Positions 12,470 to 38,835 of a stretch of 64,000 bases of DNA are shown one piece after another. The notes under the pieces were generated by a model. That model searched no databases, was not told where the DNA came from, and worked only from the letters and a program-made list of their open reading frames with translations. Position 1 is the stretch's first letter; every line of letters starts with the position of its first letter. Source of the stretch: Maribacter sp. 1_MG-2023. Its GTDB lineage: Bacteria; Bacteroidota; Bacteroidia; Flavobacteriales; Flavobacteriaceae. The stretch is taken from positions 62,001 through 126,000 of the forward strand of contig NZ_JAUOPN010000003.1 of NCBI RefSeq assembly GCF_030547005.1, in the 5' to 3' direction. The position numbers were made by a program, and so were the translations under genes.

Positions 12470-14146
12470 ATGTACCACAATACCAAAAGAATAGTTTTAT
12501 TTTCATTTCTTGGTCTCTTTACTTTCCTACTCATTACATCCTGCTCTAGTTCAAAAAATGAATTCTCTAAAAAGGATGTAAAACGATCCCAAAAATTAGT
12601 GGGATTAGATTTCGATAAAAAATATATTGACACCCTATACCCCTATCTAAAAAGGAATAAAGAAGGTTTTGATACCTTGCGGAAATACACCTTAGATAAC
12701 GACGTCGTACCTGCAATACAGTTTAATCCCCTACCCCTAAACTTCACCCCAAAAGCACAAGCGGGATTCCCTGAATGGAAAATTGCCGATAACGTAGAAC
12801 TACCAAACAAAGAAGCTGACCTTGCTTTTTACTCCATTCCCCAACTTGCATCTCTTATTAAAAGTCATAAAATTAGTTCTCTTGAACTAACCGAATTCTT
12901 TATAGCCCGATTAAAAAAATATAATCCGGTTTTAGAATGTACCATTACCATCACAGAAGAAATGGCATTGGAACAAGCCAAAGATTTAGATGCCGAACTG
13001 GCTGCTGGGAACTATCGCGGAATTTTGCATGGCATACCTTACGGCGTAAAAGATTTAATAGCGGTCGAAGGTTATAAAACAACGTGGGGCGCTGAACCAT
13101 ACCGTAACCAACAAATTGAAATGACTGCAACCGTGGTTCAAAAATTACAAGATGCAGGTGGAGTATTAGTTGCAAAATTAGTATCAGGTTCTTTGGCAAG
13201 GGGAGATGTTTGGTTCGATGGAAAAACTAAAAATCCGTGGGATACCACACAAGGTGCCACAGGATCATCTGCAGGTTCTGGATCTGCAACCTCAGCAGGA
13301 TTAGTCCCTTTTGCTTTGGGTACAGAAACGTTGGGCTCCATAACATCGCCAAGTAATAGAAACGGAATTACAGGTTTACGCCCAACTTATGGTAGAGTTA
13401 GTAGACACGGGGTAATGAGCTTAAGTTGGTCTATGGATAAAGTAGGTCCAATGGCTAGAAGTGCAGAAGATTGTACTATTGTATATAGCGTGATTACAGG
13501 TAAAGATCCAAAGGACGGAATGACCACAGATTACCCTGACGGATTCGAACCTCAAAAAAACTACAAATCGCTAAGAATTGGATACCTAAAAAAGGATATT
13601 GAAAAAGACACCTCTTTAAGTAAAGACAACCTTGAAAAGGCATTGAAGACTTTTAAAGAAATGGGGCTAACGCTAACCGAAGTGGAACTACCGAAAGATG
13701 TACCCTATAATAGTTTTGACGTTATTCTAAGAGCAGAAGCGGGTGCTTTCTTTGATGACATGGTACGTGCAGAAGAAGTGGATAAAATGGTAGAACAAAC
13801 ACAACGCTCTAGAGCAAACTCCCTACGGCAAGCACGTTTTATACCTGCAGTAGAATACATACAAGCCAACCGACATAGACAAGTGCTTATTGAAAAAATG
13901 CAGGCTATCATGAAAAACTATGATGTGCTTATATCCCCAACTTTTGGGAATCGACAATTAATTATCACCAACCTTACCGGCCACCCTGTAATAGCTATAC
14001 CTACTGGTCTGGACAAAGAAAAACACCCTACGAGTATTACTTTAGTTGGTAACCTGTACGATGAAGCGAGCATTCTTTTGTTAGCAAAAGCTTTTCAGGA
14101 TCAAACTGAGTTTGACGAAATGCATCCTGAAGGGTATACGGATTAG
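12470..14146 (+). CDS. Amidase-signature family lipoprotein
   Basis: This 558-residue protein has a lipoprotein signal (LLITSC, Cys25) and a long linker. The amidase signature fold carries the full Ser-cisSer-Lys triad: K194 in GVKDLIAVEG, S266 in GATGSSAGSGS, and nucleophile S290 in LGTETLGSITSPSNRNG. The spacing of 24 between the two serines matches the family. It should hydrolyse an amide in the periplasm or at a membrane surface; it is not a GatA because of the lipid anchor and the lack of Gat partners. The substrate is unknown. The gene stands alone and is followed directly by a heptamer repeat. Confidence 0.88.
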   Translation: MYHNTKRIVLFSFLGLFTFLLITSCSSSKNEFSKKDVKRSQKLVGLDFDKKYIDTLYPYLKRNKEGFDTLRKYTLDNDVVPAIQFNPLPLNFTPKAQAGFPEWKIADNVELPNKEADLAFYSIPQLASLIKSHKISSLELTEFFIARLKKYNPVLECTITITEEMALEQAKDLDAELAAGNYRGILHGIPYGVKDLIAVEGYKTTWGAEPYRNQQIEMTATVVQKLQDAGGVLVAKLVSGSLARGDVWFDGKTKNPWDTTQGATGSSAGSGSATSAGLVPFALGTETLGSITSPSNRNGITGLRPTYGRVSRHGVMSLSWSMDKVGPMARSAEDCTIVYSVITGKDPKDGMTTDYPDGFEPQKNYKSLRIGYLKKDIEKDTSLSKDNLEKALKTFKEMGLTLTEVELPKDVPYNSFDVILRAEAGAFFDDMVRAEEVDKMVEQTQRSRANSLRQARFIPAVEYIQANRHRQVLIEKMQAIMKNYDVLISPTFGNRQLIITNLTGHPVIAIPTGLDKEKHPTSITLVGNLYDEASILLLAKAFQDQTEFDEMHPEGYTD

Positions 14147-14376: not shown

Positions 14377-15042
14377 CTAAATCTTTCTGCCATCTAAAAG
14401 GTTGATGATTCTTGAACCGTACGCTGCATTCTTTTCGGAGTGTGTTACTTGAATAATAGTTACGCCTTCTTCTTTGTTTAGTTTCTTAAAAAGCTGCATT
14501 ATTTCTTCACTTTGTTGCGAGTTTAGATTACCGGTCGGCTCATCTGCCAATATTAATTTCGGCTTACCAATTAATGCACGGGCTACACCTACTAACTGCT
14601 GCTGACCACCACTCAACTGCGTAGGAAACAAGTCTTTTTTACCTACAATACTAAATCTATCTAACATATCAGCCACCAAAGCTTTGCGCTCAGAGCTCTT
14701 TATTTTTTTATACAACAAAGGCATTTCTAAATTTTCTTCTACCGTTAAATCATCTAACAAATGATATGATTGAAATACAAAACCTATGTACTCCTTATAC
14801 AAATTAGAGCGATATTTCTCTTTTAAAGAATGAACCGATTCGTTCAAAAAGTCATATTCTCCTTCATCAAAAGTATCTAGCATACCGATAACATTAAGTA
14901 AAGTAGACTTCCCTGATCCCGACGGACCCATAATTGAAATGAACTCCCCTTCTTGAACTTCTAAGTTAATATCCTTCAACAAAAAAATACGTTGACCGCC
15001 TAGCTGTACCCATTTGAAAATATTTCTTAATTGTAATAACAT
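14377..15042 (-). CDS. ABC transporter ATPase, LolD/MacB type, altered signature
   Basis: This 221-residue ATPase subunit is the last gene of the seven-permease cluster. Walker A is GPSGSGKST (39-47), the Q-loop lies in FVFQSYHLLDD, and Walker B with the catalytic Glu is LILADEPTGNL (E168). H-loop VTHSEK is also present. The signature reads LSGGQQQLVGVARAL, with Leu150 where nearly all relatives have Arg. The D-loop reads GNLNS (Asn174) instead of GNLDS. It should pair with the FtsX-type permeases upstream, possibly with reduced or altered coupling. A second, canonical ATPase gene lies at 32504-33199. Confidence 0.9.
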   Translation of the reverse strand: MLLQLRNIFKWVQLGGQRIFLLKDINLEVQEGEFISIMGPSGSGKSTLLNVIGMLDTFDEGEYDFLNESVHSLKEKYRSNLYKEYIGFVFQSYHLLDDLTVEENLEMPLLYKKIKSSERKALVADMLDRFSIVGKKDLFPTQLSGGQQQLVGVARALIGKPKLILADEPTGNLNSQQSEEIMQLFKKLNKEEGVTIIQVTHSEKNAAYGSRIINLLDGRKI

Positions 15043-15091
15043 TTTATATAGTGAATTAGTTGATTAGTGATTGTTTGTTAAATCTTTATTA

Positions 15092-24801: not shown

Positions 24802-24815
24802 CTAAATTCGTGCCA
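24802..24815 (-). promoter_or_regulatory. Sigma-54-like promoter B (-24/-12)
   Basis: TGGCACGAATTTAG on the minus strand has the -24 block TGGCACG and, at the right spacing, TAG at the -12 position (canonical TTGC). It lies 74 bases before the start of permease paralogue 4. The transcript start would be near 24790. Two similar elements occur in the cluster at 27457 and 35951. Confidence 0.5.
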
Positions 24816-24866
24816 CACTATCAAAATACTGATTATCAATTTTTTATAATAAACACCAATATGTTG

Positions 24867-24909
24867 AGTGTAAAATATTTTGACAAAAGATGTACAATAT
24901 ATTTACAAA
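24867..24909 (-). promoter_or_regulatory. Operator-like copy B for the NtrC-type regulator
   Basis: A 43-bp sequence starting AGTGTAAAATATTTTGACA, with ATGTACAATATATTTACA later, aligns without gaps to the copies at 27521 and 36026. It is located 52 bp upstream of the -24 element, a normal place for an activator of sigma-54 promoters. Binding by the divergent NtrC-type regulator is inferred. Confidence 0.6.
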
Positions 24910-24983
24910 GACCGATTAAAAATCAGAATGTTACACTACTCAAAGTATCAACCTAAAACGACTAATTACCACCTGTAAAATGG

Positions 24984-27416
24984 CTATTCCGATCGTAAAC
25001 TCTTTACTGGATTTACAACTGCCGCTTTTATACTTTGATAACTTACCGTTACTATAGCTACTACAATTGCCAATACTGCTGCCAAAGCGAAAATGCCGAT
25101 ACCGATTTCAATGCGGTACGAGAAATCTTCTAACCACTTATTCATGGCGAACCAACCTAGGGGCAAAGAAATTACAATAGCTACACCCACCAATTTTAGA
25201 AAATCTACCGTAAGTCGGTAAGAAATTTGACTTACAGTAGCCCCCAACACTTTTCTAACACCGATTTCTTTTGTACGCTTTTCAGCATTAAAGGCAGCTA
25301 ATCCAAATAACCCCAAACAAGCAATAAAAATGGACAGCATAGTAAAAATGAAAAATATCTGACTCAGTTTTTGTTCCGCTTCATAGGTGGTATTAAAGGC
25401 TTCGTCCATAAAACCATAATCGAAAGGTTGATTAGGCGCCATGGCGTTCCATGTATTTTCTATTGCTGAAATATTATTTTCATAGTCTCCACCGTTAATT
25501 CTTACCGCCATATTCTCGGCATCTGAATTAAGTTGCATACCTAGTGCTCCAATGTTATTACGCAACGATGTATAATGAAAGTCTTTGACCACTCCGATTA
25601 TAGTATAGTAGGTAGGGTTTTCTTGATCTATTTCTTCAGATATTCGCATACCTAAAGCTTCTTCTGCAGTGACATTAATAATAGGCAACGTAGCTTCATT
25701 TATTATCATTGCCGTAGAATCTGATGCATATTGCGGATTAAAATCTCGCCCAGCAACTATTTCCATTTCCATAGTTTTTAGGTAATCTGAATCTACGGCC
25801 CATTCTTGCATTTGAATGGCACTTTCTTGATCTCTTGCACCTTCTTCAAAGAACGAACTATCTGACCTCCAAGAAGGTGTTGGGTAGTAATCACTTAACG
25901 TAACGCTCTCCACATAACCCATATTAGCAATTTGCTCTTTAAAAGCTTTGGTCTTAGAACCTATAGCCCCTATATCGTTAATTAACAGTACTTTATCTTT
26001 AGAAAAGCCTAAATCTTTGCTCTGTATGTAATTTAATTGTTGAAATACCACCAAGGTACTTATGATAAGAAATACCGAAATTGAAAATTGAAATATTACC
26101 AAGGCATTACGTACCCTACCATTACCTACACTTTCTGCACTACCACCTTTTAAGCTTTTAACAGCAGTAAATCTTGACATAAAAAATGCTGGGTAACTTC
26201 CTGAAAATAGCCCAAGCAACAAGGTTGATACCAACAACACCAACCAGAATAAAGGCTGAGTAAAAGGAATTGAAATTGCTTTACCCGTAAAGCTGTTAAA
26301 AAAAGGCAAAGCCAACAATGTAATTATTAGTGCCGCTAACAAAGACACAAATGCTATTAAACCTGATTCTGTTAAAAACTGAAAAACCAGATTCATTTTA
26401 TTGGACCCTAAGGTCTTTCTTACCCCAACTTCTTTGGCTCTCTTTAACGAATGTGCAGTAGATAAATTCATGAAATTTACACTCGCGAGAATTATTAAGA
26501 AAAGCCCAATAAAAGATAAGATGTAAATGTTTTGAATACTACTTGTTGCATTCATTTCTGAGCTTTTATCTGAATGCAAATGAATATCGGTCAAAGCCAT
26601 CGTCTGGTACCTAATATAATTACCAGATGCCGCAAAGGACTCTGCTGTCATACCCGGAAAATATTTTTGAGCCCATGGCAACATATACCGCTCTAACATG
26701 CCCTGCAAAGGTCCTTCAAAATCTTTTGCTGTGGTTCCCGGTACTAGTTTTATAAATGTGAAATAATTATTTCCACCCCAATTATCTTCTCTAGATGCCA
26801 CGTTGCCCGCCATTGCCAAAAACACACTATAGTCATTGAAGTAAGAATTTTTAGGCATGTCTTCAATCACTCCGGTTACCGTATAGGTATCAGTATTATC
26901 CAACAATAAATTCTGACCAATAACATCTGTAGAACCAAAATGTTTCTCTGCGGCAGTTTTAGTAAGCACTAACGAATTTATGCCCGTTAATGCTGTTTTA
27001 GCATTACCAGCAATTAAATCAATCCCCAAGAATTCAAACATTGTAGAATCAGCAAAGGTTATATGGTTTTCTTTGGCACTTCTGTTTCCTCCAACTTTTT
27101 TCACATACGCACCACCTACAGTTCTAAAACGAACTGAAGATTCCACTTGTGGATAATCTCTTTTTAAGGTTTCTGCCATTGGTGCTGCAGATTCACCTGC
27201 TTTAATTTCCGCCCCTCCAAATTTTATATCTGAATCTATTCGATAAATCCTATCTGCATCGGCAAACATTTTATCATAACTAAGCTCGTCGTTGATATAT
27301 AACGATATAATTAATGCTCCTGCCATACCAATGGCTAGTCCGAATGTATTTAGAAAAGTAAAAAAGGCTTGCTTTTTTAAGCTCCTCCAGGCGATTTTTA
27401 GATAGTTTTTAAACAT
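24984..27416 (-). CDS. MacB/FtsX-type ABC permease, paralogue 5
   Basis: This 810-residue permease is the longest of the set and belongs, with the gene at 29940, to a subgroup marked by LTDIHLHSDKSSEMN before helix 2 and FMNLSTAHSLKRAKEVGVRK after it. The first domain is longer than in the ENGK-type subgroup. Shared ends are MFKNYLKIAWRSLKKQA and NPVKSLRSE. It seems to be a single-gene transcription unit: it has its own sigma-54-like promoter and operator copy upstream, and another promoter region lies beyond its stop. Confidence 0.9.
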   Translation of the reverse strand: MFKNYLKIAWRSLKKQAFFTFLNTFGLAIGMAGALIISLYINDELSYDKMFADADRIYRIDSDIKFGGAEIKAGESAAPMAETLKRDYPQVESSVRFRTVGGAYVKKVGGNRSAKENHITFADSTMFEFLGIDLIAGNAKTALTGINSLVLTKTAAEKHFGSTDVIGQNLLLDNTDTYTVTGVIEDMPKNSYFNDYSVFLAMAGNVASREDNWGGNNYFTFIKLVPGTTAKDFEGPLQGMLERYMLPWAQKYFPGMTAESFAASGNYIRYQTMALTDIHLHSDKSSEMNATSSIQNIYILSFIGLFLIILASVNFMNLSTAHSLKRAKEVGVRKTLGSNKMNLVFQFLTESGLIAFVSLLAALIITLLALPFFNSFTGKAISIPFTQPLFWLVLLVSTLLLGLFSGSYPAFFMSRFTAVKSLKGGSAESVGNGRVRNALVIFQFSISVFLIISTLVVFQQLNYIQSKDLGFSKDKVLLINDIGAIGSKTKAFKEQIANMGYVESVTLSDYYPTPSWRSDSSFFEEGARDQESAIQMQEWAVDSDYLKTMEMEIVAGRDFNPQYASDSTAMIINEATLPIINVTAEEALGMRISEEIDQENPTYYTIIGVVKDFHYTSLRNNIGALGMQLNSDAENMAVRINGGDYENNISAIENTWNAMAPNQPFDYGFMDEAFNTTYEAEQKLSQIFFIFTMLSIFIACLGLFGLAAFNAEKRTKEIGVRKVLGATVSQISYRLTVDFLKLVGVAIVISLPLGWFAMNKWLEDFSYRIEIGIGIFALAAVLAIVVAIVTVSYQSIKAAVVNPVKSLRSE

Positions 27417-27456
27417 GGTTCTCGTTTTTTGATGCTTGATTACTGCTTATCAAATT

Positions 27457-27470
27457 CTAATTTCATGCCA
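27457..27470 (-). promoter_or_regulatory. Sigma-54-like promoter C (-24/-12)
   Basis: TGGCATGAAATTAG on the minus strand matches the -24 GG and the -12 G positions, with TAG instead of TTGC. It lies 41 bases before permease paralogue 5. It is the weakest of the three at -24 (CATG instead of CACG). Confidence 0.45.
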
Positions 27471-27520
27471 GTAAATTAATTTATTGATTTTCAGGTAATT
27501 ACATAATATTTTAAATATTG

Positions 27521-27563
27521 AGTGTCAAATATTTGGACAAATCATGTTCAAATATTTGACAAC
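27521..27563 (-). promoter_or_regulatory. Operator-like copy C with 13-bp inverted repeat
   Basis: This copy of the 43-bp sequence contains perfect 13-base arms, TGTCAAATATTTG (27523-27535) and CAAATATTTGACA (27549-27561), typical of a dimeric activator site. It starts 51 bp upstream of the -24 element. Confidence 0.65.
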
Positions 27564-27568
27564 TCAAT

Positions 27569-29917
27569 TTACTCTGTTCGTAAACTTTTTACAGGATTAA
27601 CCCTAGCTGCATTGAACGCTTGAAAACTAATGGTCAATAAGGCAATAAAAACTGCGACTATTGCAGCTATGACAAACGACCAAGCATTAATAGAAATACG
27701 ATAAGCAAAACCTTCTAACCAGTTTTGCATTAAAAAAAAGGCAATAGGTATGGCGATGACTATTGCCATGAATACCAAACGCATAAAATCTTTGGACAAC
27801 AAGCCTACTATTCCTGTAATGCTAGACCCCAATACTTTACGAACTCCTATTTCTTTTCTACGTTGGTCAGCTGTAAAGGCAGATAGCCCAAATAAACCTA
27901 AGCAAGAAATTAATATGGCAAGAAGCGCAAAAATTTGAGAAAGGTTTCCTATTAATTTTTCACTTTTAAACTTGGCATTATAGGTGTCATCTACAAATTC
28001 ATATTCAAAAGGAAATGCGGGATTAAACTTTTTTAATGATGCTTCCATACTAGCTAATGCCGCTGTTGTTGCTACGCCCGACTTCGCCTTTACATACATA
28101 AAACGCCCTTGGCTTGGGTCATTAAAAAATATCACCGGATCACTAGACCCGTACATATCATCATATAAATAGTCTTTAACAACACCAATTATAAAATAAT
28201 CTTCCTCTATTGTTTTACCAATGGCACTGCCTTCACCCATTAATCTTGCAAAGGATTCACTAACCAATAGGTTGGTGCTATCCTTTATTGGGTTTCTACT
28301 GAATCCCCTACCCTCAATAATTTTCATACCTGTGGTATTAAAGAAATCTGCTGTAATATCTCGTACAGATACCAGTACATCTTCAGTATCTACACCGCCT
28401 TGCCAATTTAATCCGGATGTATTATTTCCGCCTGATAAAATATCAGAATTTATAAGTCCAATACTTTCAATCATTCCTGAAGACTTCATATTTTCTTCAA
28501 TAGGTTTGAAGTTTTTAATGATATCTCCATTCACAGGTATCTTGACTAAGTTTTCTTTATCATACCCTAAATCGCGCCCTTTTACATGTTGTACTTGTTG
28601 GTAAACAATTATGGTACTTATTATAAACACGATGGAAACTACAAACTGAATAGCTACGAGTCCTTTTCTGATAAATGATGCGCTTCCTTTTGTTTTTCGT
28701 GCCCCCTTCAATACATCTACCGGTTTAAAAGAAGACAAGTAGAATGCCGGATACCAACCCGCAACAAAACCACAAACCAGTGTGATGCCTAGTAATGTCA
28801 AAACATGAACAGAATTGAACAAACTAAAATCAAGCTGTTTATCTATCATCATATTAAACTGTGGCACCAGTAATTTTAATAACAGCACACTCAATACGGC
28901 AGATAAGGCGGCAGTTATTATCGCCTCTGCCATAAACTGAGCTATTAGCCCTTTTCTTCCTGAGCCTAATACCTTTCGTACACCTACTTCATTTGCTCTT
29001 TTTTCACTTCTAGCAGTTGCCAAGTTCATAAAATTGATGCAGGCTATCAATAAAATAATAATGGCAATAAGACTAAACAGCCTTACATAAGTTATTTTAC
29101 CTCCTATATTTTTACCTCCTTCAAAGGCGGACCTTAAATGCCAGTCTTTCATAGAAAATAAAAATGCTATGGTTTCGTCATCTTCCGTTTTCATGGGAAG
29201 TATTGCTTTTACTTTCTCATTGACAACATTAAAATTTGCTTCTGGAGAAAGCTCCACAAAAGTGTCTGAAAAATTAGCACCATATTCTTTTACCCATTCA
29301 TTATCCTTTGCAAAGCGCTCAAAAGGAACAACCCAATCAAAACTGTATGTGATATTGTGTGGTAAATCTTCATAAACTCCTGAAACGGTATAACTTGTTT
29401 CATTATTTATTTTAATTACTTTATTAATTGCAGATGTATTTTCGCCAAATAACTGGTTAGCCGTCTCTTGTGAGATGACAATGGCATCTACATCATTAAA
29501 AGCCGTTTCTAAATTACCTTCTACAAATGAGAGACTGAACATGCTTAAAAAATCTGGGTCTGCGTATCGTCCAAATTTATTGATAGAAGTTTCTCCTACC
29601 TGAAATAAAAAATCTTCTCCTTTTGTTCTAGCAGACCCAACTATTCCTGGTACTTCTTGCTTTAATACTTCAGCTAACGGACCAGGAGTAGCCTGAAAAA
29701 ATGTACGCCATTCACCTTCGTATTGTTGGTTGGTAGGTACATAATACACTACATCTTGCTTGTCAAAATTTTGATCATAACCTACCTCATCTTCTACCCA
29801 AAGTAGAATCATTGCCGCACAGGTAATACCTATTGCCAAACCAAAAATATTAAGCATGCAATACCCTTTATTCTTCCAAAGGTTTCTCCAAGCGATTTTT
29901 ATATAGTTTTTGAACAT
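27569..29917 (-). CDS. MacB/FtsX-type ABC permease, paralogue 6
   Basis: This 782-residue permease is the shortest of the set and belongs to the ENGK-type subgroup (FEGGKNIGGKITYVRLF before helix 2, then FMNLATARSEKRANEVGVRK). Shared ends are MFKNYIKIAWRNLWKNK and NPVKSLRTE. Eight helices and two periplasmic domains are visible. It follows paralogue 7 by 22 bases and so probably belongs to the TolC-HlyD-ATPase-permease transcription unit from promoter A. It is followed by the operator and promoter of paralogue 5; its stop almost touches operator C. Confidence 0.9.
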   Translation of the reverse strand: MFKNYIKIAWRNLWKNKGYCMLNIFGLAIGITCAAMILLWVEDEVGYDQNFDKQDVVYYVPTNQQYEGEWRTFFQATPGPLAEVLKQEVPGIVGSARTKGEDFLFQVGETSINKFGRYADPDFLSMFSLSFVEGNLETAFNDVDAIVISQETANQLFGENTSAINKVIKINNETSYTVSGVYEDLPHNITYSFDWVVPFERFAKDNEWVKEYGANFSDTFVELSPEANFNVVNEKVKAILPMKTEDDETIAFLFSMKDWHLRSAFEGGKNIGGKITYVRLFSLIAIIILLIACINFMNLATARSEKRANEVGVRKVLGSGRKGLIAQFMAEAIITAALSAVLSVLLLKLLVPQFNMMIDKQLDFSLFNSVHVLTLLGITLVCGFVAGWYPAFYLSSFKPVDVLKGARKTKGSASFIRKGLVAIQFVVSIVFIISTIIVYQQVQHVKGRDLGYDKENLVKIPVNGDIIKNFKPIEENMKSSGMIESIGLINSDILSGGNNTSGLNWQGGVDTEDVLVSVRDITADFFNTTGMKIIEGRGFSRNPIKDSTNLLVSESFARLMGEGSAIGKTIEEDYFIIGVVKDYLYDDMYGSSDPVIFFNDPSQGRFMYVKAKSGVATTAALASMEASLKKFNPAFPFEYEFVDDTYNAKFKSEKLIGNLSQIFALLAILISCLGLFGLSAFTADQRRKEIGVRKVLGSSITGIVGLLSKDFMRLVFMAIVIAIPIAFFLMQNWLEGFAYRISINAWSFVIAAIVAVFIALLTISFQAFNAARVNPVKSLRTE

Positions 29918-29939
29918 GATTCTCGTTTTTGATGATGAA

Positions 29940-32357
29940 TTATTCTTTCCGTAAACTTTTTAATGGTTGTATCAATGCCGCACCTACAGATTGATAACTT
30001 ATAGTCAGTATTGCGATGGTCAATGCAATTAAACCTGCTACTAGAAATATTCCCCAACCAATGGTAATATGGTAAGCAAAGTCTTGTAACCATCGGGTCA
30101 TCATATACCACCCTATCGGCACAGCTATTATGATAGATACTAAAATAAGTTTCATGAAATCTAGGGTAAGCAACTTATAGATACTCTTAAATGGCGCACC
30201 TAATACCAAGCGTATGCTAATCTCTTTTTTACGCTGTTCTACCATAAATGCAGATAGGGCAAACAACCCTAAACACGCCACCAATATGGCAAATAATGCA
30301 AAGCTGTTGAATATCTTACCCATGCGCTCTACATCATCATGCATACGACTAAATTCTTGGTCTAAGAAGCTATAATTTATAGATTGGTTTGGAACATTTT
30401 TATTCCAAAGAGTTTGTATAGATTCTAATGCCTGGTTTACATTCCCTTTCTCCAATTTCAGTGATATAGACCCTAAATCTTTGCCAATTACCAATGACAA
30501 GGAAGAAATATCTTCTTTTAAGGACTTAAAATGAAAATCATCTACTACGCCTATTACTTTGAACATCTGCCCATTATTATTAATCTCTTTGCCAACTGCA
30601 TTTTCTAAACCTAACTCTCTTTGCATATTGGTATTTATAATGATGGAATTCAATGAATCTGATGCAAACTGCTTAGAGAAATCTCTACCGGTATTAAGCG
30701 TAATACCTAATGTTTTAATGTAATCATAATCTACCCTCCAAATTTGAGCGGGTATGCCTCTACCTTCATTACCTTCGTCTTCTCTTCTAAAGGTATTTCC
30801 ATTTCTACTACCACCATCTACTGGTAAATAGTTGGATATAGTTGCTGCCTTTACCTGTGGTAGTTGTAGTAACTGCTCTTTAAAATTTTCTGCACTATTC
30901 CCTAATACTCCGGTGCCCTCAAGTATCACCACTTGTTCTTTATCATAACCCAATTCTTTTTGAAGAATAAAGTCCATTTGCTGATAAATAATCAACGTGG
31001 CTATAATCAAGATTACCGATGTAGTAAATTGAAAAATAACTAATCCGCTTCTTAATTTCCCACTCTTACTACCTATACTTAAACTACCTTTTAGAACATT
31101 TACGGGTTTAAATGCTGATAAATATAATGCGGGATAAAGCCCTGCCAATGCTCCAACCAAAAGAGCAAAAATCAAAACAACAGGTATAAACCACCATATA
31201 GCCCAAGGCATTTCAATTGTTTTTGATGCGATAGTATTAAAAGCTGGCAATAATGCCCAAGCCAATAAAACACCAAGTATAAATGATACAAAACTGAACA
31301 AGATAGATTCGGTCATGAATTGCACCACCAAATTACTTTTATAGGCACCAATGGTTTTTCTTAGGCCTACCTCTTTTGCTCTATTAGCTGATTTTGCTGT
31401 AGAAAGATTAATAAAATTGATTACTGCTAATAGTAGTACAAAACCGGCAATAGCCGCAAAGAGCCAAACGAATCTAATATCGCCATGCTTAAGACCATCT
31501 GCCATTTTAATATCTGAATACAAGTGAATATCTGTGATAGGCTGAAGTTTATACTCCATGGTTCTTAGCACATCAATAAAATCTGGCGCACGCCCTCTTT
31601 CTCGTTGTGCAGGAATGATATAATCTTCAACAATAGAAACCATTTTTTTCTCTAATTGTTGAACATTTGTATTGGGGTCTACTAATACATAGGTAAAGTA
31701 GTTCTGATTGGTCCAACTTGCATTGGTGTCTTCAATGGGAATTAAAAAATCGTATTCTAAATGCGAATTCTTGGGCGCATCTTTCATAACACCTGTAACG
31801 GTGTACGGTTTACTAGCGTCATTATCTAAAATGATTGTTTCGCCTATAATCGTTTCATTCTTAAAATATTTTGCCGCTTTAGATTCTGAGATTACTATAC
31901 TCTTCGGATTTGCCAATGCCGTGTTCGGATTGCCCTGCTCTAACTTCACATCTAGTATCTCAAATGCTTCTTGGTCTGCAAGTAAAAATCCGTCTTCGAG
32001 GTTATTTTGGCTCTCGTCAGCTAAACGAATACCACGTTTACCGGCTCCAAATATTCCTGTAGTATTTACTTTTCCCGCTTTCATAATTTCAGGAAAATCA
32101 CTTTGCAAGACATCTGCAAAAGGTAACTGAAAGTGTGTACTTTTCATTACTTCACCCTTGTACATACCTTCTAGCACTACACGGTACATTTGATCCTTAT
32201 TGGCGTAGTGTTGATCATAACCCACCTCATTGCGAATGAATAATGCAATTAAAAGACAGGCTGCTATACCAACAGCAAAGCCGCCAATTTTTATGGCGGC
32301 AAAGAGTTTATCTTTCTTTAAACTTCTCCAAGCAATTTTAAGATGGTTTCTATACAT
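29940..32357 (-). CDS. MacB/FtsX-type ABC permease, paralogue 7
   Basis: This 805-residue permease forms a subgroup with paralogue 5 (ITDIHLYSDIKMADGLKHGD before helix 2; FINLSTAKSANRAKEVGLRK after it). The last residues QPLKSLRKE differ from the NPVKSLRTE of the others. The second coupling motif is KEISIRLVLGAP, with Leu for Lys in the RK pair. It lies 146 bases from the canonical ATPase gene upstream and is its closest permease, so these two may form the core transporter with the HlyD and TolC proteins. Confidence 0.9.
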   Translation of the reverse strand: MYRNHLKIAWRSLKKDKLFAAIKIGGFAVGIAACLLIALFIRNEVGYDQHYANKDQMYRVVLEGMYKGEVMKSTHFQLPFADVLQSDFPEIMKAGKVNTTGIFGAGKRGIRLADESQNNLEDGFLLADQEAFEILDVKLEQGNPNTALANPKSIVISESKAAKYFKNETIIGETIILDNDASKPYTVTGVMKDAPKNSHLEYDFLIPIEDTNASWTNQNYFTYVLVDPNTNVQQLEKKMVSIVEDYIIPAQRERGRAPDFIDVLRTMEYKLQPITDIHLYSDIKMADGLKHGDIRFVWLFAAIAGFVLLLAVINFINLSTAKSANRAKEVGLRKTIGAYKSNLVVQFMTESILFSFVSFILGVLLAWALLPAFNTIASKTIEMPWAIWWFIPVVLIFALLVGALAGLYPALYLSAFKPVNVLKGSLSIGSKSGKLRSGLVIFQFTTSVILIIATLIIYQQMDFILQKELGYDKEQVVILEGTGVLGNSAENFKEQLLQLPQVKAATISNYLPVDGGSRNGNTFRREDEGNEGRGIPAQIWRVDYDYIKTLGITLNTGRDFSKQFASDSLNSIIINTNMQRELGLENAVGKEINNNGQMFKVIGVVDDFHFKSLKEDISSLSLVIGKDLGSISLKLEKGNVNQALESIQTLWNKNVPNQSINYSFLDQEFSRMHDDVERMGKIFNSFALFAILVACLGLFALSAFMVEQRKKEISIRLVLGAPFKSIYKLLTLDFMKLILVSIIIAVPIGWYMMTRWLQDFAYHITIGWGIFLVAGLIALTIAILTISYQSVGAALIQPLKSLRKE

Positions 32358-32450
32358 GATTCCCGTTTTATGTGATTGATGACACTTCTATTATCCGTGA
32401 TTAAGAGATAAGCTTGGTTGGTTCGGTTTTTGGTTGATTAGTTATCTTCA

Positions 32451-32477
32451 CTTCTGCTCCGCTCAGTGAACGGAACC
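32451..32477. repeat. Dispersed intergenic repeat fragment
   Basis: CTTCTGCTCCGCTCAGTGAA followed by CGGAACC in the ATPase-permease gap weakly resembles the CGCTCAG part of the copies near 9724 and 14226. Confidence 0.25.
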
Positions 32478-32503
32478 AATAATTGATTGATGAATAAACT
32501 TCG

Positions 32504-33199
32504 CTACATCATGGCTCCGATTGCTCGGTTCTGACTTTCGGTTACTACTTGACCATCGAATAGGTTTACTACTCTATGCGCATAGTGCGAATCTCTATCT
32601 GAGTGTGTTACCATAACTATGGTGGTTCCCTCTTGGTTTAATTCTGTTAATAGGTTCATCACCTCGATTCCGTTTTTGGAATCTAAATTACCAGTTGGCT
32701 CATCTGCCAGTATTAATTTTGGATTGGTTACTACCGCTCTTGAAATAGCTACACGTTGCTGTTGACCGCCTGATAGTTGCTGTGGAAAATGCTTTTCTCT
32801 ATGCGCAATTTTCATACGCTCTAGTACTTTCATTACTTTTTCTTTACGCTCCGCTTTACCCATTTTTAAGTAGATCAGCGGTAGCTCTACATTTTCAAAA
32901 ACTGTAAGTTCATCGATAAGATTAAAACTCTGAAAAACGAAACCCAAATTACCTTTACGTAATTGTGTACGCTGACTTTCCTTTAACCCACCAACTTCAT
33001 TACCGGCAAAATTGTAGCTGCCATCGGTAGGGTTATCTAACATACCAATAATGTTCAATAAGGTAGATTTACCACAACCTGACGGCCCCATAATGGCAAC
33101 AAATTCTCCATCTTCTACTTTTAGGTTGACACTATTCAATGCCAAGGTTTCTACTTCTTCTGTTCTAAAACTTTTTTTAAGGTTCGTAATGGTTATCAT
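32504..33199 (-). CDS. ABC transporter ATPase, LolD/MacB type (canonical)
   Basis: This 231-residue ATPase has all motifs in standard form: Walker A GPSGCGKST (38-46), Q-loop in FVFQSFNLIDEL, signature LSGGQQQRVAISRA with Arg149, Walker B LILADEPTGNL, D-loop GNLDS (Asp173) and H-loop VTHSDRD. It follows the HlyD-type gene and precedes permease paralogue 7, so it is the energising subunit of a MacAB-TolC-like pump. It may also serve the permeases without a near ATPase. Confidence 0.93.
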   Translation of the reverse strand: MITITNLKKSFRTEEVETLALNSVNLKVEDGEFVAIMGPSGCGKSTLLNIIGMLDNPTDGSYNFAGNEVGGLKESQRTQLRKGNLGFVFQSFNLIDELTVFENVELPLIYLKMGKAERKEKVMKVLERMKIAHREKHFPQQLSGGQQQRVAISRAVVTNPKLILADEPTGNLDSKNGIEVMNLLTELNQEGTTIVMVTHSDRDSHYAHRVVNLFDGQVVTESQNRAIGAMM

Positions 33200-33260
33200 A
33201 TTCCTGCTATTTTGATTGTTATAATGACACCGAGAATTCTCAGATGTGACAGTTGGTTTT

Positions 33261-34511
33261 CTATTTTAATACTATTCTCTCGGCTTCGCCGAAATTATCA
33301 TAGTTACTTGTAATTACTTTTTCTCCAGGTTCCAAGCCTTCTAATACTTCATAGTATCTAGAATTCTGCTTTCCTATTCTAATATTTCTTTTAATGGCTT
33401 CTCCACCATCAGAATTCACAACAAAAATCCATTGTCCGCCAGTGCTTTGAAAGAAACTTCCTTTTGGTAACAAAAGCGCATCGTTAGATTCACCTAATTG
33501 TAATTTAATGTTGTAGCTCTGACCTGAACGAATGGTCTCTGGCTTATTATCGGTAAACACTAAATCAACCTTAAACCTACCGTTTCTTACCTCAGGATAT
33601 ACCTTTCGTAATCGCAATGGAAATTCTGTTCCGTTACGCTCTAAAACCGCAACCAAATCTCTTTTCACTCTATCAATATAATGCTCATCGATTTCTGCTT
33701 CTATTTTATAATCAGTAAGTACATTAATCTGCCCTATTCGCTGCCCTTGTGCTATACTTTGCCCAATTTCGGCATCTAAAAATCCTAATTGACCATCTGC
33801 AGGAGCGCGAACATTTAAGTGATCTAATCTTTGGTAAACCATACCCAAAGTCTTTTGCATACGGTCTAAATCTGTATCCAAACCTTTTAATGATGTTGAG
33901 CGTAATTCATCATCCTGCACAGTTTGTACTTTAATAATTTCATGTTGTTTTTGAGATAATTCATAATTTTCTTTTGATAACTGAAATGCTTCTCTAGAAA
34001 TTAGCTCATCATCGAACAAGGCTTTGTTCTGCTCATAATTTCTTTTCAAACGTTGTAAGTCTGTGCTTGCCGTCGCTAATGATCTTCTGCCTTCTACCTG
34101 TCTAGAATCGAAACTCATTTTGGTTGACCTTAAGTCATTTTGCTTTAAAGCTAAGTTACTTTCGCTAGCCAAAATCTGCTCGTACAAATTCATGTTCTCT
34201 AGCTTCAAAATGATATCACCTTTCTTTACCATGGCACCTTCTTCTATAAGTTTCTCACTTACACGTCCACCTTCATAGGCATCCATATAAATTGTGGCTA
34301 TTGGTGCAACACTACCGTTAATAGTAATATAGTCATCGAATTTACCTGCAGAAACCTCAGCAATGGATAGCTTATCTTTTTCTGTTCTGAAAGTCGATAC
34401 GGAACTTGCAAATAATAATTGATAGCCCACCAATAGCAACAACGCACCTAATGCGATGTAGCCGTAATGTTTTAACTTTAGTCCTTTTTTCTTTTCTAAT
34501 TTTATGTCCAT
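33261..34511 (-). CDS. HlyD/MacA-type periplasmic adaptor
   Basis: This 416-residue membrane-fusion protein has an N-terminal helix (about 16-36), then a barrel/lipoyl part (GGRVSEKLIEEGAMVKKGDI near residue 90). A long coiled-coil hairpin (about 110-230, rich in Gln, Lys and Glu), the second lipoyl half with RAPADGQLG, and a C-terminal barrel (LEPGEKVITSNYDNFG) follow. It should link the inner-membrane ABC permease to the TolC channel. Gene order TolC-HlyD-ATPase-permease with gaps of 56, 61 and 146 bases supports one export complex. Confidence 0.92.
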   Translation of the reverse strand: MDIKLEKKKGLKLKHYGYIALGALLLLVGYQLLFASSVSTFRTEKDKLSIAEVSAGKFDDYITINGSVAPIATIYMDAYEGGRVSEKLIEEGAMVKKGDIILKLENMNLYEQILASESNLALKQNDLRSTKMSFDSRQVEGRRSLATASTDLQRLKRNYEQNKALFDDELISREAFQLSKENYELSQKQHEIIKVQTVQDDELRSTSLKGLDTDLDRMQKTLGMVYQRLDHLNVRAPADGQLGFLDAEIGQSIAQGQRIGQINVLTDYKIEAEIDEHYIDRVKRDLVAVLERNGTEFPLRLRKVYPEVRNGRFKVDLVFTDNKPETIRSGQSYNIKLQLGESNDALLLPKGSFFQSTGGQWIFVVNSDGGEAIKRNIRIGKQNSRYYEVLEGLEPGEKVITSNYDNFGEAERIVLK

Positions 34512-34567
34512 CTTATTCGTAATTCATTTTTCGTTTTTGCCTACTCTTTACTGACCCCTTTTAAGGG

Positions 34568-35923
34568 CTAGTTAGATTGAATATCAAATACTGTTAATCC
34601 TCGATAAAAATCTAATGTGCTTTTATTAATTTCTGAACGAAGCTTTACCTGTAAATTTTCATTCTGTGCACCAGCAAATAAATTCTTGGCCGTAAAAAGC
34701 TCTAAAGCGTTGATAAGCCCTTTCTCATATCGTTTTTGAGCAATAGTAAATGTAAGATTTTGTGCTTCCACTTTTTGATTGCTTTGCATCAACTCTACCA
34801 GTAAAGAATTATAATCTTGTACCAGTTTCTGTATAGCTTGAAACAGCTCTTGTTCTTGTGTTTTTAGATTGTTCTCTGCTCTCATCTTTTCTATTTTAGA
34901 TTGCTTTAGTCTAGATCTTGCAGACCAACCATTACTTATAGGTACATTTAAATTGACACCAACATATTGTGAGGTATTATCTCTAAACTGCTCTCTAAAT
35001 GGTAAGGTATTACCTAATGTATCTCTAAAAGTTTCGAAATACCCTGTTCCAATACCCGCAAAGAATGATAGTGAAGGGTATAATCTACCTCTTGAAACCG
35101 CTACTTGTTTTTTAGCTGCTTCCGTTCTAAATTCTTGTGCTTTTATCATTGGAATAAATTCCCTTGCTTCTTTATAAACAGAATCTGATTTCATTTCTTT
35201 ACTCTTAACTTCAGACACTATTTCTTGTAAATCTTTTTGAATATTTATCTCTGACGTATTCTCCAAATTCATTTCTTGAATTAATGTTAATTTCGCAGCA
35301 GCCAACTGATTCTTACTTTGGGTAACATTTAATTCATCTGTCAACAGTAAAGATTCTGCTTCATACAAATCTGCACCAGCTTTCAATCCTAATTCTACCT
35401 GTCTTTCTACTAAGTTGTAATTAGATTGCGATACATTCAGTTGTTCCTTTGATATTTTTACAAGACCATCAAAAAACTGAATATCATAAAAAGCTTGCAT
35501 CACTCTAAATGCCAATAAATATTTTTGTTGTAATACTTCTTCTTGGGTCGCCTTTAACAACAACTTAGATGCTTTTATCGCATTGATTTTCTGAAACCCC
35601 TGAAATAAGTCTATAGACGATTCTAATGAATAATTATTCGAGAAAAAATCTTGATTTACATATGTACCTGTATTGGGATCTTCTGCTCTACCATTGTTAA
35701 CTCGATAACTAGAAAATGCATTTACTGAAGGCAATAAATTACGAACAGATTGCCTGTACGTTTCTCTATTTGATTGGTTGGTATACTTAAAGTCGTTTAA
35801 TTGCAAATTATGTTCTAATGCAAAAGACACGCATTCATCTAATGTCCAACTACTATCTTGAGCCATTATAGACCCCCAAATAGAGAGAAGTAAAAGTATC
35901 GTTATTATAAATTTTTGATTCAT
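34568..35923 (-). CDS. TolC-family outer membrane channel protein
   Basis: This 451-residue protein has a signal peptide (about residues 1-21, ending IMAQ) and two outer-membrane-efflux repeats rich in long Gln/Asn/Lys helices (about 30-240 and 250-445). It should form the trimeric exit duct of the pump. It is the first gene after the divergent control region with sigma-54-like promoter A, whose predicted start leaves a leader of only about 15-17 bases. Confidence 0.92.
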   Translation of the reverse strand: MNQKFIITILLLLSIWGSIMAQDSSWTLDECVSFALEHNLQLNDFKYTNQSNRETYRQSVRNLLPSVNAFSSYRVNNGRAEDPNTGTYVNQDFFSNNYSLESSIDLFQGFQKINAIKASKLLLKATQEEVLQQKYLLAFRVMQAFYDIQFFDGLVKISKEQLNVSQSNYNLVERQVELGLKAGADLYEAESLLLTDELNVTQSKNQLAAAKLTLIQEMNLENTSEINIQKDLQEIVSEVKSKEMKSDSVYKEAREFIPMIKAQEFRTEAAKKQVAVSRGRLYPSLSFFAGIGTGYFETFRDTLGNTLPFREQFRDNTSQYVGVNLNVPISNGWSARSRLKQSKIEKMRAENNLKTQEQELFQAIQKLVQDYNSLLVELMQSNQKVEAQNLTFTIAQKRYEKGLINALELFTAKNLFAGAQNENLQVKLRSEINKSTLDFYRGLTVFDIQSN

Positions 35924-35950
35924 TTCTTTATTGGTATGCCATTCTCCATA

Positions 35951-35964
35951 CTATATGCGTGCCA
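35951..35964 (-). promoter_or_regulatory. Sigma-54-like promoter A (-24/-12)
   Basis: TGGCACGCATATAG on the minus strand has a perfect -24 block (TGGCACG) and TAG at the -12 position. It lies 28 bases before the TolC start. Together with promoters B and C it defines TGGCAYG-N4-TAG. Confidence 0.5.
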
Positions 35965-36025
35965 TAATTTTAATTTATTGATTATCAAGCACTTACATAT
36001 TAATAAAAATTATACATATTTTACC

Positions 36026-36068
36026 AGTGTAAAAATGTTGTACAGATAATGTCAAAAATTTTTACACT
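36026..36068 (-). promoter_or_regulatory. Operator-like copy A with 11-bp inverted repeat
   Basis: Arms AGTGTAAAAAT (36026-36036) and ATTTTTACACT (36058-36068) flank a 21-base centre. The whole aligns without gaps to copies B and C. It starts 62 bp upstream of the -24 element, about one helical turn further than B and C. It lies in the divergent gap and might also control the regulator gene. Confidence 0.62.
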
Positions 36069-36124
36069 ACCATGAAAATATAAACTTCTATGTGTAGATT
36101 TAAATCAGTTAATAGATTGTTGCC

Positions 36125-37489
36125 ATGATAGATGCTAAAATACTTGTAGTAGATGATACCAAAAGTGTATTGAGCGCTTTAGAGATATTATTACAGTTTG
36201 AATATAAAAGTGTACAAACAATATCGAACCCTAACCTGCTTACCTCTTTCCCTAACCTACAGGAAATTGATATCATATTATTAGATATGAATTTTTCTGC
36301 GGGAGTGAATACCGGCAATGAGGGCTTATATTGGCTACGAGAGATAAAAAAGAAAGCTTCACATATATCGGTAATTATGATGACGGCTTATGGTGCCGTA
36401 GAACTTGCTGTAGAAGCAATTAAAGAAGGTGCTACCGATTTTGTACTTAAACCTTGGAACAACGAACGACTATTAACTACCGTAAAATCTGCCTACGAGC
36501 TTAGAAAGTCGCAGAAAGAGGTACAGCATCTCAAACAGAAAGAGAGTAATTTGAAGCAGGTTATCAATCAGAATTCAAATTACATTATCGGGAATTCTAA
36601 AGCGTTGAACAGTGTTTTAAACCTCGTGCAGAAAGTTGCCAAAACAGATGTAAATATTTTAGTTACTGGCGAGAATGGTACAGGAAAAGAACTAATCGCT
36701 CGCGAACTGCATAAATCTTCGTCTAGAAATAACGAGGTTTTTATCTCGGTAGATATGGGTTCCATATCAGAGAATTTATTCGAGAGTGAACTTTTTGGTC
36801 ATGTAAAAGGGTCTTTTACAGATGCTAAAGATGACCGCGCAGGTAAGTTTGAAGCTGCCAATGGCGGTACACTCTTCTTAGATGAAATTGGTAACCTTTC
36901 TTTACAAATGCAGGCAAAACTATTATCTGTTATTCAAAATAGGGTTGTTGTACGTGTGGGATCAAACAAGCCTATCACTGTTGATATTAGATTAATATGT
37001 GCTACTAATGGTAATTTAGAACAAATGGTTTCTGACGGATTGTTTCGTGAAGATCTTTTATACCGAATAAACACCATACAAGTACAGGTACCTGCATTGC
37101 GAGATCGAGATAATGACGTGTTAGTATTATCAGATTTCTTCTTGAAAAAATTCGCCAACAAATACGGTAAGCCCAACTTAAAAATAAATCAATCTGCACA
37201 AGAGAAATTAATGACATACCCTTGGCCTGGTAATGTTAGAGAGCTTTTGCATACCATGGAGCGTGCGGTTATACTTTCTGAAGGAAATGTATTAAAACCA
37301 ACCGATTTTCTATTGGACACCAAAACTACGGTAACCATTGAAGGCGGACCAAAAACTCTTGAAGAAATGGAACTGGTGATGATCAATAAAGCATTAAATG
37401 ACCATGAAGGAAATTACAGTGCTGCTGCCGATCAATTGGGTATTTCGAGACAAACGCTTTACAATAAACTTAAAAAATCGGGTAAATAA
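36125..37489 (+). CDS. NtrC-family sigma-54-dependent response regulator
   Basis: This 454-residue protein has a receiver domain with D10, D11, phosphoacceptor D54 and K109. An AAA+ domain follows with Walker A GENGTGKE (182-189), the sigma-54-contacting loop GSFTDA (229-234; canonical GAFTGA) and Walker B TLFLDE (249-254). A Fis-type helix-turn-helix (about 413-454) ends SRQTLYNKLKKSGK. It should bind the three operator-like copies and activate the sigma-54-like promoters of the permease cluster. The histidine kinase gene overlaps its stop by one base. Confidence 0.93.
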   Translation: MIDAKILVVDDTKSVLSALEILLQFEYKSVQTISNPNLLTSFPNLQEIDIILLDMNFSAGVNTGNEGLYWLREIKKKASHISVIMMTAYGAVELAVEAIKEGATDFVLKPWNNERLLTTVKSAYELRKSQKEVQHLKQKESNLKQVINQNSNYIIGNSKALNSVLNLVQKVAKTDVNILVTGENGTGKELIARELHKSSSRNNEVFISVDMGSISENLFESELFGHVKGSFTDAKDDRAGKFEAANGGTLFLDEIGNLSLQMQAKLLSVIQNRVVVRVGSNKPITVDIRLICATNGNLEQMVSDGLFREDLLYRINTIQVQVPALRDRDNDVLVLSDFFLKKFANKYGKPNLKINQSAQEKLMTYPWPGNVRELLHTMERAVILSEGNVLKPTDFLLDTKTTVTIEGGPKTLEEMELVMINKALNDHEGNYSAAADQLGISRQTLYNKLKKSGK

Positions 37490-38835
37490 TGGTCAGCAAA
37501 AGTATATACTATCAGCTTGTTTTCAGAATCATTCTGATAGCCGTTTGTGCACTACTCACCGCATTTCTGTTTTTTAAAGAACATTACCTGCTCAGTGTTA
37601 TTTTTAGTCTCGTTTTTATAGGACAGACATACGGACTCATACATTACGTGAATCAGACCAATAGAAAAATTGCTTATTTCTTTGATGCCATAAAGAATGA
37701 AGATTTTACCTTACGTTTTCCAGAAAAATTGAGTGTAAAATCTATTGAAGAACTCAACCAAAGCTTAAATATGTTGAATGGTATGATTCAAGATATTCAT
37801 GTAAAAAAACAGGCACAAGAGCAGTATTATCAAGAAATATTGAGACAAGCTGATATTGGAATATTCACTGTCAATGACAAGGGGCATATTTTATATGCGA
37901 ACCCCACGGTACAAAACTTATTAAATTACAGGCCCTTAAATCATGTTAAGCAATTAAAGCAAATAGACCCTAATCTCTATAGTCTATTTGAATCTTTAGA
38001 GCCTTTTGAAAGCACGCTATATTCTTTAGGAAATGAACGAGGTAAAAAAGAATTGACTCTAAAGTGTACGCCAATTGCTATTGAAGGTAAGCAGTTATTA
38101 TTGGTCATTGTTCATGATATTCAAAAAGAATTAGATGATAAAGAAACTGATTCTTGGGTGAAACTAATTCGTGTTCTAACCCATGAAATCATGAATACCA
38201 TTACTCCGATTACTTCTATTTCTGAGTCTATCTTAAAATACTTTAAAAAAGGAAATGTGCTTTCTACGCCCGAAGAATTTGGAGAACTTCAAATAAAAAA
38301 TTCGGCAAAAGGTTTGGAGGTTATCAAAGAACAAGGAAATGATTTAATGAGTTTTGTACAGTCTTACCGCACATTTTTAAGTGTACCTGAACCTGATCGA
38401 GAATTAATACCCGCTAGCAAGATTTTAGAAAAAGTTCGGTTGTTATTGCAAGAGTATACCAACGGACATAATATTACCTTAGAAGTATCATCTGAACCTG
38501 AAAAACTAGAACTTTATATTGACGAAAAACAGATTACCCAAATACTTTTAAACCTTGGCAAAAATGCCCAACAAGCGCTTGAAAGTCAAGATGAGGGTAG
38601 CATCATTATAAAAGCTGAAGAAGATGTGCAGGGTAAAAAATATATTACGGTTACCGATAACGGCCCTGGGGTTTCTGCGGAGTTATTAGATGAAATATTT
38701 GTTCCGTTTTTTACCACTAAAAATACTGGAACAGGAATCGGTTTAAGCTTAAGCAAGCAGATTATGCGAATGCACGGTGGGTCAATTAGGGTAGTATCTA
38801 CTGAAAAGACAACATTTACCCTAACATTTCAATAG
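37489..38835 (+). CDS. Sensor histidine kinase, two helices with minimal periplasmic loop
   Basis: This 448-residue kinase has two helices (about 9-28 and 33-52) joined by only a few residues (KEHY), then a HAMP-like linker and a PAS-like domain (about 115-210). H232 lies in LTHEIMNTITPI, and the ATPase domain has LNLGKNAQQALE, DNGPGVS and GTGIGLSLSKQI. It is the cognate kinase of the NtrC-type regulator by the TAATG overlap. With no periplasmic sensor domain, the signal must come from the membrane, from a partner protein or from the cytoplasm. Confidence 0.92.
   Translation: MVSKSIYYQLVFRIILIAVCALLTAFLFFKEHYLLSVIFSLVFIGQTYGLIHYVNQTNRKIAYFFDAIKNEDFTLRFPEKLSVKSIEELNQSLNMLNGMIQDIHVKKQAQEQYYQEILRQADIGIFTVNDKGHILYANPTVQNLLNYRPLNHVKQLKQIDPNLYSLFESLEPFESTLYSLGNERGKKELTLKCTPIAIEGKQLLLVIVHDIQKELDDKETDSWVKLIRVLTHEIMNTITPITSISESILKYFKKGNVLSTPEEFGELQIKNSAKGLEVIKEQGNDLMSFVQSYRTFLSVPEPDRELIPASKILEKVRLLLQEYTNGHNITLEVSSEPEKLELYIDEKQITQILLNLGKNAQQALESQDEGSIIIKAEEDVQGKKYITVTDNGPGVSAELLDEIFVPFFTTKNTGTGIGLSLSKQIMRMHGGSIRVVSTEKTTFTLTFQ

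Follow-up and report, generated by a model that had tools for sequence, protein, structure and literature searches.

We investigated three related 43-bp sequences in a 64,000-nucleotide stretch of the Maribacter sp. 1_MG-2023 genome (4.27 Mb; contig NZ_JAUOPN010000003.1, here G000:C23:62001-126000; this whole stretch is "the window", and its own numbering is used below). All three lie on the minus strand within a cluster of exporter genes: S1 (36026..36068), S2 (27521..27563), and S3 (24867..24909). They are very probably enhancers for the adjacent NtrC-type response regulator (36125..37489, plus strand), which would activate sigma-54 transcription of an exporter-permease regulon. Such a role was proposed in an earlier sequence-only reading of the window, and it is supported here by a motif that is confined to the cluster in this genome, is conserved across Flavobacteriaceae in the gap between the regulator gene and the divergent TolC gene, co-occurs with orthologues of the regulator, and stands at a quantised distance from a TGGCAYRN4TRG element. 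The assignment of these predicted operators to a known class, the sigma-54 enhancer or upstream activating sequence (UAS), is well supported, and their anatomy is unusually clear.

The three sites align without gaps at the coordinates first given for them, with 25 of 43 positions identical in all three and pairwise identities of 29, 29, and 32 of 43, the last for S2 and S3, for which "about 32" had been counted. The outer inverted repeats described earlier, with arms of 11 and 13 bp, are present in the printed sequences, and they arise from a finer anatomy. Read toward the promoter, each site consists of two 17-bp tandem dyads (TGT-N11-ACA-N5-TGT-N11-ACA), with 5 bp between them and centres 22 bp apart: 36050-36066 and 36028-36044 in S1, 27545-27561 and 27523-27539 in S2, and 24891-24907 and 24869-24885 in S3. 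The dyad sequence of these operators is TGTNNA-N4-TTNNACA. We replaced the outer inverted repeat by the tandem dyads as the functional unit because conservation tracks the TGT/ACA positions and the adjacent A/T. Each 43-bp site would then offer two adjacent dimer sites to the regulator.

An exact search of the 4.27-Mb genome for the double dyad located S1-S3 and a single further place, four in all, the extra one lacking the AT-rich interior; a reversed-pattern control gave none, and base composition predicts about 0.5. A motif was also built and the whole genome scanned, as the sequence-only reading had advised, and no random spread was seen. In this sequence-only profile search (25 sites; best 150 of 6,946 first-look candidates scored), S1-S3 were recovered at E <= 4.3e-9 on the better strand, a match that is by construction since they are part of the profile, and the next match had E = 0.04. 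No dispersed operator copy was found in the window's own genome by the exact pattern or among the best 150 of the 6,946 profile candidates. No Rfam family reached its gathering threshold in window positions 15000-45000.

Downstream of each operator is a -24/-12 element on the minus strand: TGGCACGCATATAG at 35951..35964 (promoter 1), TGGCATGAAATTAG at 27457..27470 (promoter 2), and TGGCACGAATTTAG at 24802..24815 (promoter 3). The sequence-only reading had put these 62, 51, and 52 bp from the operators; the pattern with one odd spacing holds, and each distance was one too many, a recount giving 61 (S1), 50 (S2), and 51 (S3) bases to TGGCAY. We then compared promoters from related clusters, retaining 89 of 96 in the regulator/TolC gap (class A) and 38 of 40 internal ones (class B) after removal of duplicates and short rows; across these 127 distinct promoters, the downstream element reads TGGCAYRN4TRG. 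The distance from operator to TGG was 60-62 in 89/89 promoters of the regulator/TolC gap and 50-51 in 37/38 internal Maribacter sites (45 once). Among 37 further sites picked from the matches listed in other genera, it was 59-62 in 30 and 49-52 in seven. Pooled with these 37, the 164 promoters fall at 59-62 (119), 49-52 (44), and 45 (one), and never at 53-58, so that 163 of 164 belong to two classes one helical turn apart, which bears out the earlier remark that the odd site is shifted by about one turn. The dyads stand about 100 bp upstream in helical register, as those of a sigma-54 enhancer do. Judged from the -24 elements, transcription would start at about 35938, 27444, and 24789. A second TGGCATACCA motif is present at window 35932-35941, near the predicted start site and just before the TolC start; many regulator/TolC promoters from other species have it too, and it misfits the -24/-12 element. 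As an alternative -24, we considered the second TGGCAT of promoter 1, near +1, and rejected it by eye, there being no G in the -12 register.

The promoters have a third part. The sequence-only reading recognised the operators and the -24 elements and missed both a regulator-side sigma-A-type element (below) and a 25-bp symmetric block, YAANNNNYTGATWATCARNNNNTTR, whose centre lies a constant 19 bp before the T of TGGC. The block is on the minus strand at 35971..35995 (promoter 1, exact), 27477..27501 (promoter 2, one mismatch), and 24822..24846 (promoter 3, exact). Because it is fixed at 19 bp, the one-turn change in spacing falls between operator and block. It reads in both directions as the consensus of integration host factor (IHF), WATCARNNNNTTR, with two TTG/CAA steps 9 bp apart, at which we presume the IHF bends to be located. 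At the fixed position, the consensus was found with at most one mismatch in 65/89 and 32/38 promoters (shuffled spacers: 0.27 and 0.18) and exactly in 29/89 and 10/38, in agreement with an IHF-site sequence between enhancer and promoter. The genome holds two HU/IHF-type genes, by eye one IHF-like (C23:188124-188390) and one HU-like (C17:2702-2971), and we infer from the sequence that the factor at the block is IHF-like.

It is unlikely, though far from negligible, that the middle block instead serves a second dimeric regulator of conventional type as its operator, or is a contact for the C-terminal domain of the polymerase alpha subunit (alpha-CTD), an explanation that is compatible with the enhancer reading of S1-S3. 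The block is a clean palindrome and is not confined to the cluster: it has six exact places genome-wide and 23 with at most one mismatch (control: 0), and among the 20 copies outside the cluster, 18 are intergenic, beside unrelated genes, and 19 have no -24/-12-like element within 150 bp. However, IHF classically sits between an enhancer and a sigma-54 promoter, which is the position of the block here. Both of its halves also match WATCARNNNNTTR, and the 9 bp between its TTG/CAA steps is the spacing of the two IHF bends that is given, together with the consensus, in the accessible part of PMC8421141. Since the outside copies are mostly intergenic, the block looks like a candidate site of a general architectural factor of the phylum. 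Examples of these copies in the same genome are C2:123319-123343, C12:22068-22092, C43:104666-104690, and C45:26487-26511; they do not represent the same arrangement, as block plus promoter at up to three mismatches finds only the three promoters of the window in the genome.

The operator is conserved where the regulator is. The regulator was found in 33 of 36 genomes of the genus, and we read 20-kb stretches from 29 of the 32 other regulator-bearing ones (all except G008, G031, and G034) and from one genome of another genus in the same family (n = 30). In all 31 clusters, the window included, the double dyad lies within the regulator/TolC gap. These clusters contain 40 internal sites (two of them the window's own), 39 of which lie upstream of a permease gene and one of which is cut by a contig end; no internal site was found within the stretch read in six of the 31 (L048, L057, L059, L066, L067, and L071). 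In the 36 genus genomes, the exact pattern has 93 places and the control nine; of the places listed outside clusters, at least four look like chance matches. The pattern is present in 35 of the 36, the exception being a genome 68% complete. Beyond these, we used the profile score to find sites in 80 named loci, some of which share a species with unnamed ones: in the 600 bp upstream of the regulator, the highest score exceeded 25 bits in 64/80 and 20 bits in 65/80, with a top score of -8 bits in 1 Mb of random sequence. About 15 operator positions are nearly invariant across genera and the remaining ones vary; in Maribacter, 12 positions are conserved by construction, since a 12-base pattern was used to collect the sites. 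Among the 14 more distant named loci, L171 and L176 have the operator upstream of the regulator, and it was absent from L177-L188 in the profile scan (50-59% identity; L183 has only 138 bp upstream). The distant regulators of L072-L075 (41-51% identity) likewise had no operator by the exact pattern. With a stricter pattern and no mismatch allowed, applied to 395 genomes of the class, one of the 381 outside the family matches (G723), and there the operator is flanked by a regulator of 50% identity and a TolC relative. The arrangement thus recurs in many related marine bacteria, which argues for a genuine regulatory circuit of a familiar kind.

To assign the operator to a protein, we defined orthologues of the regulator by E <= 1e-180 and at least 61% identity, a cut-off at which 44 of 299 family genomes qualify. 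An operator match is present in 42 of these 44 and in eight of the 255 others (Fisher p ~1e-40, phylogeny ignored), a genome being scored for a match anywhere in it, with some of the places listed. The eight exceptions could mean that the operator belongs to another DNA-binding protein that regulates the same cluster while the NtrC-type regulator binds elsewhere, but we consider this improbable given the co-occurrence and given that the operator occupies the regulator's own gap in G723, outside the family, and in L171 and L176 precedes the regulator gene. Three of the exceptions were read, the other five being known as listed sequences: two (G305 and G199) score below 0 bits and are chance-like, whereas G283 is not. 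Fifty family genomes hold only relatives of 43-50% identity, and three of them match the operator (G199, G305, and G353). The presumed DNA-reading part of the regulator is associated with the operator as well. Its helix-turn-helix (HTH) reads (S/T)RQTLYNK in 62/62 listed close orthologues with operator and in L171, and SRQTIYNK in L176, while in 10 of 12 distant operator-free relatives YR(R/K) replaces YNK, the exceptions being L180 and L181. The site in G283, a genome without an orthologous regulator, is a strong operator (L231, G283:C25:62178-62216; 40.7 bits) accompanied by a bend block and, at 61 bp, a -24-like AGGCACAC; it lies upstream of a gene for an MG2-domain protein.

The regulator matches PF00072, PF00158 (2.4e-68), and PF02954, all above cut-offs, and so has the receiver (REC), Sigma54_activat AAA+, and Fis-type HTH_8 domains of an NtrC-type sigma-54 activator. 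Its presumed partner is encoded in the same genome by one rpoN gene over cut-off (Sigma54_DBD 1.4e-51 at C34:168048), with an intact RpoN box, ARRTVAKYRE.

On its other side, S1 faces a sigma-A-type -7 element of the regulator gene (TANNTTTR, 36095..36102, plus strand), 26 nt from the operator edge. In 62 of 65 named loci, against 1.2 expected from shuffles, a TANNTTT element, which we take to be the -7 consensus of Bacteroidota sigma-A, stands at 25-27 nt from the edge of the operator. With the operator at so fixed a distance, the regulator is probably autoregulated from the same operator, in either direction. One might go further and take the site as mainly an autoregulatory operator of this sigma-A promoter, with the internal copies as duplication relics; this is very improbable, as the internal and dispersed copies retain both the -24/-12 spacing and the bend block and lie at least 9 kb from the regulator or on other contigs, and autoregulation may coexist with activation. 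That the repeats are chance similarity or mobile-element leftovers, as AT-rich composition and the duplication of permease units with their promoter (L063, 68-71%) might suggest, can be set aside almost entirely in view of the lack of further copies in the genome scans above, the nearly invariant positions across genera, and the quantised spacing.

The 37 sites from other genera suggest what the operator may control elsewhere. They comprise 18 dispersed sites and 19 sites on the same contig as the regulator, 7-58 kb from it, all among the matches listed; of 20 stretches fetched, three (L231-L233, without an orthologue) do not contribute to the 37. Thirty of the 37 precede a permease gene within 300 bp and two an ABC (ATP-binding cassette) ATPase gene; among the 18 dispersed sites, all in genomes with an orthologue, 14 precede a lone MacB/FtsX-type permease gene. 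The bend block was found with at most four mismatches in 33 of the 37 and a -24/-12 score of at least 15 in 33, by a finder in which GG is obligatory and a bend block counts in a candidate's favour; this finder succeeds on 0.7% (bend block) and 2.9% (-24/-12) of random segments. In L063, neighbouring promoter-plus-permease units at 13467 and 16120 can be aligned at 68-71% along most of their length, which shows that such units duplicate together with their promoter. In L216, operator promoters at 3999 and 12501 stand before genes for a DUF2268/GldB-like lipoprotein and a DUF2807 protein, which are possible exporter cargo or sensors.

In the window, the regulator and histidine kinase genes on the plus strand diverge from a long series on the minus strand. 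The kinase (37489..38835, plus) has PAS and HATPase_c domains and two closely spaced N-terminal hydrophobic stretches. The first minus-strand unit begins, beyond the gap that holds S1, with a TolC-type outer-membrane efflux protein (34568..35923), followed by an HlyD-type periplasmic adaptor (33261..34511), a MacB/LolD/DarD-like ABC ATPase (32504..33199), and the MacB/FtsX-type permeases P1 (29940..32357) and P2 (27569..29917). Downstream of S2 is P3 (24984..27416; unit 2), of the same type, and downstream of S3 are P4 (22329..24728), which starts unit 3, P5 (19933..22317), also MacB/FtsX-type, and P6 (17539..19899), a permease by its open reading frame sequence and by cross-matching of P1-P5 relatives. 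The cluster is longer than first described, as 14377-17500 adds a seventh MacB/FtsX-type permease (P7, 15092..17500), probably a continuation of unit 3, and a second ABC ATPase (14377..15042), its probable end.

Several observations weigh against the enhancer reading. Two genomes with an orthologue have no detected operator (G095 and G137). Three of the 66 close named loci (at least 71% identity) fail the operator score: L114, which is cut by a contig end, L127, whose TolC gene, at 775 bp, lies beyond the 600 bp scanned, and L152. RQTLYNK is kept in these three and in L180, all operator-free, so the HTH helix alone does not predict the operator. Upstream of the L152 regulator, there is a degenerate operator with an intact bend block and -24/-12, a possible natural loss of regulator control. 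Within the promoter element, GG is present in 127/127 promoters and CA nearly so, in agreement with a sigma-54 -24, but the finder rewards GG, T, and G and penalises missing GG, so that this invariance is partly by construction; the -12 is TRG rather than TTGC, with T and G in register in 127/127 (again rewarded by the finder), A between them in 94/127, and C after G in 19/127. The sigma-54 contact loop of the regulator is GSFTDA, not GAFTGA; in 66 close orthologues, it is GSFTDA in 47, GAFTDA in 17, and not found in two. In the part of PMC4641369 available, GAFTDA and GSFTGA are listed among the variants that keep activity, and the double variant is absent from that list. Among the matches listed, four of the 18 dispersed sites stand before genes not recognised as encoding permeases, namely the DUF2268/GldB-like lipoprotein, the DUF2807 protein, and two unclear ones. 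Lastly, the division of the cluster into three transcription units, made in the sequence-only reading, is plausible because a gene begins after each pair of site and promoter, but the gaps leading to P3 and P4, where units 2 and 3 would begin, yielded no terminator-like site, so that transcription may read through and the units may overlap.

If S1-S3 act as enhancers, the circuit would work as follows. The paired histidine kinase would sense an envelope signal and phosphorylate the regulator, which, to judge from the dyads and the protein family, would bind both dyads, two helical turns apart, and assemble an AAA+ ring. At the symmetric block, whose place upstream of the promoter is fixed, an IHF/HU-type protein would bend the DNA, as the consensus suggests, so that the ring would lie on the right side of the helix and remodel sigma-54 polymerase at TGGCAYRN4TRG. 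This would switch on the unit of TolC, HlyD, ATPase, P1, and P2, then P3, and then P4 to P7 with the second ATPase. Because its two closely spaced hydrophobic stretches resemble those of the intramembrane-sensing Bce kinases, one may speculate that the kinase senses the state of the transporter or envelope-active compounds. We further suggest, tentatively and with more doubt than belief, that a portable cassette, made up of the double-dyad enhancer, a symmetric site bound by an IHF-like homodimer, and TGGCAYRN4TRG, spreads with single MacB/FtsX-type permease genes across flavobacterial genomes, placing an increasing number of interchangeable permeases under one membrane-sensing kinase/regulator pair that would all join the ATPase-adaptor-TolC core of the home cluster.

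IHF-assisted sigma-54 promoters of the NtrC family include those of glnA, nif, and the Pu type. The promoters described here share with them the tandem dyads about 100 bp upstream for an AAA+ activator, the IHF-consensus block in between, the -24/-12 element, and spacing changes by whole turns, but differ in having the dyad sequence given above, two dyads at 22 bp, a symmetric bend block, a -12 of TRG, a GSFTDA/GAFTDA loop, and exporter-permease targets. Bce-type modules of Firmicutes typically have an OmpR-type regulator, whereas the one here is NtrC-type, and the likeness is limited to the working principle. As far as the accessible text of PMC3023708 describes those modules, they likewise encode, next to an ABC transporter whose extracytoplasmic domains are large, a kinase that has two membrane stretches close together; the present system is set apart by its NtrC-type regulator, its partners TolC and HlyD, its many permeases, and, in other genera, its targets in trans. 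Its adaptor, ATPase, and permeases match the darobactin exporter models (NCBIfam DarB, DarC, and DarD), but all below curated cut-offs, so they are not members. COG0577 permeases are enriched in the predicted sigma-54 regulon of Bacteroidia (PMC12316311, available part), which likewise puts antimicrobial-peptide-type ABC permeases under sigma-54 in Bacteroidota. The main text of that paper contains neither "IHF" nor "UAS", and its activator list keeps only GAFTGA proteins, so the regulator described here would be left out. An earlier comparative study connected sigma-54 broadly with the exterior of bacteria; its main text does not contain "Bacteroid", "ABC transporter", or "permease" (PMC3162934). 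Our literature searches found no published description of this operator or circuit.

For a predicted sigma-54 circuit of Bacteroidota, the analysis yields an operator and its probable cognate regulator, together with a rule for the spacing and a list of candidate targets. The one-turn shift found in nature lends itself to testing face-of-helix looping, and the symmetry of the bend block points to a specific site for an IHF-like protein of the phylum. The dispersed targets unite many orphan MacB-type permeases of unknown role in one putative regulon.

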